Source: Actinomycetota bacterium | Lineage (GTDB): Bacteria > Actinomycetota > Acidimicrobiia > Spongiisociales > UBA5794 | Assembly: GCA_013151445.1 (NCBI GenBank) | Contig: JAADIG010000013.1 | Location: forward strand, 1-61,202 | Length of the DNA stretch: 61,202 nt | Direction of reading: 5' to 3' | Shown: in pieces, positions 60,849 to 61,202 of the stretch | How the letters are laid out: each line of letters starts with the position of its first letter | Numbering within the stretch: the first letter of the stretch is position 1 | Position numbers and translations under genes: made by a program | The notes under the pieces: model-generated | Database searches by the model: none | Seen by the model: the letters and a program-made list of their open reading frames with translations, nothing else | What the model was told of the DNA's origin: nothing

Positions 60849-60922
60849 GGGGCTGTAGCTCAGCTCGGCAGAGCACTTGCATGGCATGCAAGGGGTCAGG
60901 GGTTCAAATCCCCTCAGCTCCA
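60849..60922 (+). tRNA. tRNA-Ala (GGC)
   Basis: The acceptor is GGGGCTG/CAGCTCC (one G·U), the anticodon stem is CTTGC/GCAAG with loop ATGGCAT (anticodon GGC), and the T-loop is GGTTCAAATCC. Its 3' end is repeated downstream at 61063–61085 and partly at 61172–61180. Confidence 0.96.
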
Positions 60923-61202
60923 CGATAGAAAACGGGTCTCCCCGCGTGGTTTCGAGTCCCTGTCGGGCCTCGAAACCGCTCCCCGGTTCTGGCTGGCAAG
61001 ATTCCGCGTCTCTGGTTCTGTATCCCGTGGAATGTTCGATGGTGGCGGGGTTAGAGGGTTCAGGTTCAAATCCCCTCAGCTCCACGTCGGTTTCGCCCTT
61101 CGGGCGAAGCCCTAACTTGAGTTTGCTTCGCAAACTCGGTGGTGCTCGCCGGTTTCAGGCTTAGATCCCGTCAGCTCCACGTCGGTTTCGCCCTTCGGGC
61201 GA
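60923..61202 (+). repeat. Downstream repeats carrying the tRNA-Ala 3' end
   Basis: The 23 bases at the 3' end of tRNA-Ala (T-arm to CAC) recur exactly at 61063–61085. A shorter copy ending CAGCTCCAC is at 61172–61180. Each downstream copy is followed by the same 22 bases (61086–61107 and 61181–61202) with the hairpin CGCCC-TTC-GGGCG. Between them GAGTTTGC/GCAAACTC (61119–61137) forms another TTC-loop hairpin. The array continues past the window edge. Confidence 0.85.

Follow-up and report, generated by a model that had tools for sequence, protein, structure and literature searches.

Short ORF-less units that end in copies of tRNA 3' ends recur behind tRNA genes and may be attachment-site-only integrative elements

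Why should the 3' end of a tRNA gene be found again, more than once, directly downstream of that gene? The question is raised by the right end of the window, the 61,202-nucleotide stretch of DNA analysed here, which is a complete contig (C36). The 24-nt tail of tRNA-Ala(GGC), GGTTCAAATCCCCTCAGCTCCACG, at positions 60901 to 60924, recurs exactly (24/24) at 61063 to 61086 and at 83% identity (20/24) at 61158 to 61181, which confirms the duplication with spacings of 162 and then 95 claimed by the initial annotation. Since the best tail match in 2,000 shuffles of the flank did not exceed 16/24, the 24/24 copy is not a chance match. The two copies differ in kind, the first closing a 162-bp core-plus-tail unit and the second a 95-bp UUCG-hairpin repeat (Table 1). 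The contig stops within this 95-bp repeat, and further sequence of the repeat stands at the end of contig C151 (96% over 145 nt), so the assembly probably broke at the tRNA-Ala array; a synteny comparison of C151 with a congener array gave a single 77-nt match.

Table 1. Features of the two tRNA loci in the window
Feature	Position	Strand	Basis
tRNA-Ala(GGC), host gene, CCA not encoded	60849..60923	+	ARAGORN; RF00005 match
Duplicated tail segment inside tRNA-Ala(GGC): G52/G53 and T-loop to the discriminator and the next C	60901..60923	+	
Type I mini-element core, ORF-less, right end ..TTCA^GGTTC	60924..61062	+	Alignment A1; CM R1 (match C36:60927-61086, E 1.8e-32; sequence was in the R1 training set)
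Conserved core hairpin, GGTTTCGAGTCCC tgtc GGGCCTCGAAACC	60948..60977	+	
tRNA-Ala tail copy 1, exact; right end of the mini-element	61063..61085	+	
95-bp UUCG-hairpin repeat unit, closing with degenerate tail copy 2 (61158-61180)	61086..61180	+	
Next 95-bp unit, beginning only, cut by the contig end	61181..61202	+	
tRNA-Leu(TAG), second host gene of the window	25971..26056	-	
Mini-element unit 1 at tRNA-Leu (core and tail copy)	25809..25970	-	CM R1 E 4.1e-23 (training sequence)
Mini-element unit 2 at tRNA-Leu, tandem copy	25649..25809	-	CM R1 E 9.2e-21, outside the training set

At the other locus, tRNA-Leu(TAG), the two units are 99% alike over 135 nt. The Ala spacer had been described as unlike the Leu spacer, and each tail copy as followed by a hairpin. 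The letters of the spacers do differ, but both align as one family, and CGTCGGTTTCGCCCTTCGGGCGA follows both tRNA-Ala tail copies, whereas the Leu copies are without it. The initial annotation had further suggested that tRNA 3' ends are duplicated by some recurrent process or element, to be checked by a scan of every tRNA of the genome and by comparison between strains. For each tRNA, an 18-nt tail (T-loop to 3' end) was sought up to 1 kb downstream at 15/18 or better, with other tRNAs masked and three tRNA calls without a recognisable tail omitted; in the window's genome (G000), a tRNA search gave 46 matches and the stretches around them were scanned. Downstream copies were found at 8 of 45 tRNAs in G000, 2 of 46 in the congener G001, 3 of 27 in the congener G002 (72% complete), 9 of 57 in the same-family genome G009 and 3 of 45 in G056 (same order, another family, one contig), and at none of 41 in the class-level outgroup G148 (one contig; 46 RNA matches, 42 tRNAs scanned). 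The six genomes together have copies at 25/261 tRNAs, against 1/261 in the upstream control; the mismatched-tail control gave 29/6,916. Recurrence is thus supported. Of the 25 cases, four differ in kind: three in G009 at 745 to 932 nt and the G056 tRNA-Pro case, whose copies reach 10 nt further left, into the T-stem.

The repeated segment has a sharp left boundary: in nearly all copies, identity ends at GG^TTC in the T-loop (the caret marks the boundary), and the right boundary falls at or just beyond the tRNA 3' end. The units, about 130 to 190 bp long and ORF-less, have mostly related cores of 110 to 150 bp, in which the first 8 nt or so are variable and the right end is conserved. In G000 the copy lies at 137 to 142 nt for six tRNAs (Ala-GGC, Ala-CGC, Ser-CGA, Pro-CGG, Leu-TAG and Val-CAC), at 190 and 351 for tRNA-Ile and at 212 for Leu-TAA, and the cores align through CGGGTCTC, the hairpin TTCGAGTCCC..GGGCCTCGAA, CTACCCGTCTCTGG, CGCGTCTC and the right end CYTAGG^TTC. 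A conserved motif directly precedes each tail repeat: (T)CRAGNCYYTAGG^TTC in g1 and g8, and ATAGAAGACGG^TTC in G056, where it stands at Tyr and Lys and has seven matches, all in that genome. The G009 cores differ in body but end on the right in a comparable way, GAGACTTTAGG^TTC, at Val, His, Thr and others. The exact motif CRAGNCYYTAGGTTCRA has 20 matches in 198 genomes, against 2 for the reversed pattern. Nineteen of the 20 were tail-checked, the G063 sites against G009 tRNAs; the adjoining tail fits a tRNA at 16/18 or better in 17 of the 20 and at 15/18 in one more, and one match, in G156, adjoins no tRNA tail. The tail is cognate to its tRNA at every tRNA examined, and similar cores occur at Val, His, Glu, Ser, Thr and Lys within one genus. 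Up to five units stand in tandem (five at G056 tRNA-Tyr, four at G056 Pro), and the arrays at G056 tRNA-Tyr and, with two units, at tRNA-Leu in the window are recently amplified. A single family does not account for all tail copies, since the core of some units is of another sort (type II, hairpin-led or the 95-bp repeat).

The type II core is likewise ORF-less, of the form GTTCAGC-TTTG-CTGAAC .. CTTTCGCCTCC .. GTCGGCGACGGG (L107 in G002, L127 and L117 in G001, L053 in G000), and it too closes with tRNA tail copies (G002 Ala unit 1, G001 Phe). A second type of repeat is palindromic (GGGAAC..GTTCC TTGGGAG..CTCC hairpins) and begins right after many tRNA 3' ends, as on contigs C21, C39, C56 and C112 of G000 (L186 to L191) and at 61086 to 61202 of the window.

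That the cores are homologous was judged by covariance model, BLAST and tree because global pairwise identities are uninformative, with shuffled controls averaging 0.71. Homologous cores at different tRNAs mean that the recurrent duplication reflects an element family rather than the bare duplicating process that had been supposed. The tail copies are probably att-like as well as recurrent, the two not being alternatives. RNAalifold finds one core hairpin of 9 pairs, of which 2 are compensatory, a weak covariation signal, and only 4 of 19 tested cores fold with z below -2 against shuffles. Most cores are therefore not unusually stable RNAs, a result that speaks for DNA sites rather than for a function as RNA, and a structured RNA or intron was rejected on these grounds; an Rfam search of nine loci at E of 1 or less returned nothing but tRNA above the gathering score. 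Weak matches of model R1 at class level (E about 1e-4 to 1e-3) are suspected to be tRNA T-arms. As a DNA pattern, the type I hairpin matched only in BMS3Bbin02 and at one Martelella locus among GTDB genomes and gave no match in viral contigs. The Martelella limonii locus (L185), one exact match in an unrelated alphaproteobacterium, is probably a chance match.

The comparison between relatives shows that presence differs among congeners. The units at tRNA-Leu(TAG) and Leu(TAA) of G000 have no counterpart copy in G001 or G002, tRNA-Ile is filled in G000 and G002 with an intact copy-free tRNA-Ile in G001, and tRNA-Arg(CCG) is filled in G002 only. At this last tRNA the empty site is exact. In G000 the tRNA runs directly into GAACCTCGCTTCGCTCGG, and in G002 a 156-bp core-plus-tail unit stands between the tRNA and the same GAACCTCGCTTCGCTCGG; G000 lacks precisely these 156 bp, and the junction flank GAACCTCGCTTCGCTCGGTTCGTT is found in both genomes. 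This one exact empty/filled pair was read directly from the sequences. The core tree comprises 38 of 57 cores, with hairpin-led, type II, G056 and long units omitted. In this tree the closely similar fMet-type cores of G000, G039 and G115, genomes of three families, form one clade (100/99) whose short branches suggest transfer from one family to another. The tRNA-His cores of G009 fall inside a Val clade of G009 and G063 (95/97) yet carry His tails, which suggests that a core moved from Val to His while its tail became that of the new host.

With modest confidence, we favour the interpretation that the units are non-autonomous integrative elements consisting of an attachment site only, which enter at tRNA T-loops by means of a recombinase supplied in trans and are then amplified in tandem. 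Each unit consists of the core and a host tRNA segment that starts at the T-loop (G52/G53-TTC) and runs through to the 3' end. A site-specific recombinase, most likely a tyrosine recombinase, would join the right half-site of the element, (C/T)YTAGG^TTC, presumably on a circular intermediate, to the T-loop of the tRNA gene, leaving the host tRNA whole with a core-plus-tail unit gained downstream. The conserved GTCTC repeats of the core and the TTCGAGTCC hairpin are putative arm-type binding sites, and the system may be active at the present day. Unit number would rise or fall in tandem through recombination between identical units, and this exchange would also hold the tails to the sequence of their tRNA. 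Site-specific recombination by an enzyme acting in trans is consistent with the boundary in the T-loop, the strictness of the target site, a conserved half-site confined to the right, and the empty site. A tail copied from the target, or gene conversion of the core, agrees better with the cognate tails and with the apparent move from Val to His: in a plain T-loop crossover the tRNA-adjacent tail comes from the element, so a move to a different tRNA should damage that tRNA. The G009 His cores with His tails are awkward for the trans-recombinase model, and gene conversion of cores between pre-existing elements could explain the change.

Larger elements with similar ends bear both on this model, which the integrase-bearing stretch of G039 favours, and on a different origin. 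On contig C24 of G039, the only case with an integrase between elements, two fMet-type elements flank 3.7 kb holding a tyrosine integrase broken into two frames, one of them with a PF00589 match, and on C64 of G000 a toxin-antitoxin-like Gp49/HTH pair lies between fMet-type elements, so similar ends can bound gene-bearing islands. Each unit might accordingly be what is left at the right of a larger island or prophage that had integrated at a tRNA and then lost its body by deletion, with no mobility of the 160-bp unit itself. The end type shared with these islands and with the 0.75- to 0.93-kb units of G009, together with three integrase fragments in G000, speaks for such decay, but random deletion is not expected to leave cores of near-constant length (137 to 142 nt at six G000 tRNAs), a 156-bp insertion that differs cleanly from its empty site, or up to five units in tandem, and we consider this origin unlikely. 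Against the trans-recombinase model, by-eye comparison found no integrase within 5 kb of the mini-arrays of G000 or G009, with the exception of one fragment 2.7 kb from tRNA-Leu(TAA).

The cognate tails could also arise by transposition, if an enzyme made a staggered cut from the T-loop to the 3' end and put the core in, so that the tail is a target site duplication of about 22 bp taken from whichever tRNA was hit. This would account for the tail being cognate at every tRNA examined, for similar cores at six different tRNAs and for His cores nested in the Val clade, and it has a precedent: casposons insert at tRNA 3' ends and duplicate the tail, and Cas1 is an enzyme family that duplicates tRNA 3' ends. 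However, a search for Cas1 (PF01867) in nine element-bearing genomes found it in none, the variable first 8 nt and conserved right end of the core are unlike a transposon with two defined ends, and every element read points the same way with respect to its tRNA, an outcome that the model, which includes the tail, itself favours. We regard such transposition as rather improbable. A functional 3' trailer, in which the units serve as terminators, processing decoys or attachment-site decoys for tRNA expression and are kept by selection, seems very improbable: the units do sit only behind tRNAs or tRNA 3' halves, and UUCG-type hairpin repeats begin right after tRNA ends, with all six exact genome matches of one palindromic hairpin pattern lying near tRNAs, but presence at a given tRNA varies between congeners and most cores lack unusual stability as RNAs. 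Simple slippage or unequal crossing-over, with no element involved, could duplicate a tRNA 3' end and its flank, as the tandem identity at G056 Tyr, G056 Pro and G000 Leu and the leftward extension of the G056 Pro copies might indicate. This explanation deserves hardly any credence: it is refuted for type I and G009 cores, since homologous cores at unrelated tRNAs and in three families cannot come from each tRNA's own flank, although it may account for G056 Pro and for the growth of arrays.

The closest known system to these putative attachment-site-only elements, going by sequence organisation, is that of the Dehalococcoides ssrA genomic islands. These islands form tandem arrays downstream of ssrA, with insertion at the T-loop and 20-bp direct repeats of the 3' end, each immediately preceded by a conserved motif; they are gene-bearing, use a serine recombinase and a single target gene, and some have no integration module (PMC3146451). 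The same study uses the CIME concept, in which att-flanked units without their own recombination module move in trans or by accretion (PMC3146451). As far as that account goes, the present units resemble the ssrA islands in tandem arrangement, T-loop boundary, 3'-end repeats and upstream motif, and differ in having mostly ORF-less cores of 110 to 190 bp, many different target tRNAs and no adjacent recombinase. They are likewise att-flanked without a recombination module, as CIMEs are described there, but are little more than an attachment site. Known CIMEs carry genes. Tycheposons and other tRNA-targeting integrative elements are kilobases in size and leave a partial tRNA duplication at the boundary, which the present units share, but without carrying genes. 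Casposons are alike in tail duplication, but the mini-units are gene-free, and a casposon identity was rejected on the Cas1 result. Like MITE and REP-type repeats, the units are short, non-coding, non-autonomous and multi-copy; unlike them, they occupy a strict tRNA T-loop site with a cognate tail, in few copies per genome, and are not dispersed. A literature search of titles and abstract openings found no description of ORF-less tRNA-tail units.

A more far-reaching possibility, which we advance tentatively and with some doubt, is a new class of mobile element of about 130 to 190 bp that consists of nothing but an attachment site and colonises many tRNA genes, a counterpart of MITEs in site-specific recombination, or else transposition with a target duplication of tRNA-tail length. 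On the attachment-site-only reading, many tRNA genes would be open to colonisation because each insertion gains a tail copy of the tRNA entered. If this is true, the units would in our judgement be among the smallest integrative elements known, and would bear on how att sites can pass from one tRNA gene to another and leave each intact. Recombination at tRNA genes has ready-made markers in the arrays, which may also serve as decoy attachment sites. Assembly of tRNA loci is made difficult by such arrays, the window's own contig ending in one.

Several observations concern larger or less regular arrangements. The gene-size units of G009 (L229, L231 and L241), 745 to 932 nt long and bounded by longer tRNA 3' copies that reach into the variable loop or anticodon arm, are a separate class of tRNA-integrated islands. 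The assembled tRNAs of G000 do not include an initiator tRNA-Met of the usual sequence, which may be hidden in an assembly gap where a repeat array stands. At L054 (C64 of G000) and L120 (C67 of G071), split tRNA-fMet 3' halves that bear the core separate short gene groups, the Gp49/HTH pair among them, from one another, in cassette-like arrays reminiscent of an integron-like cassette array.
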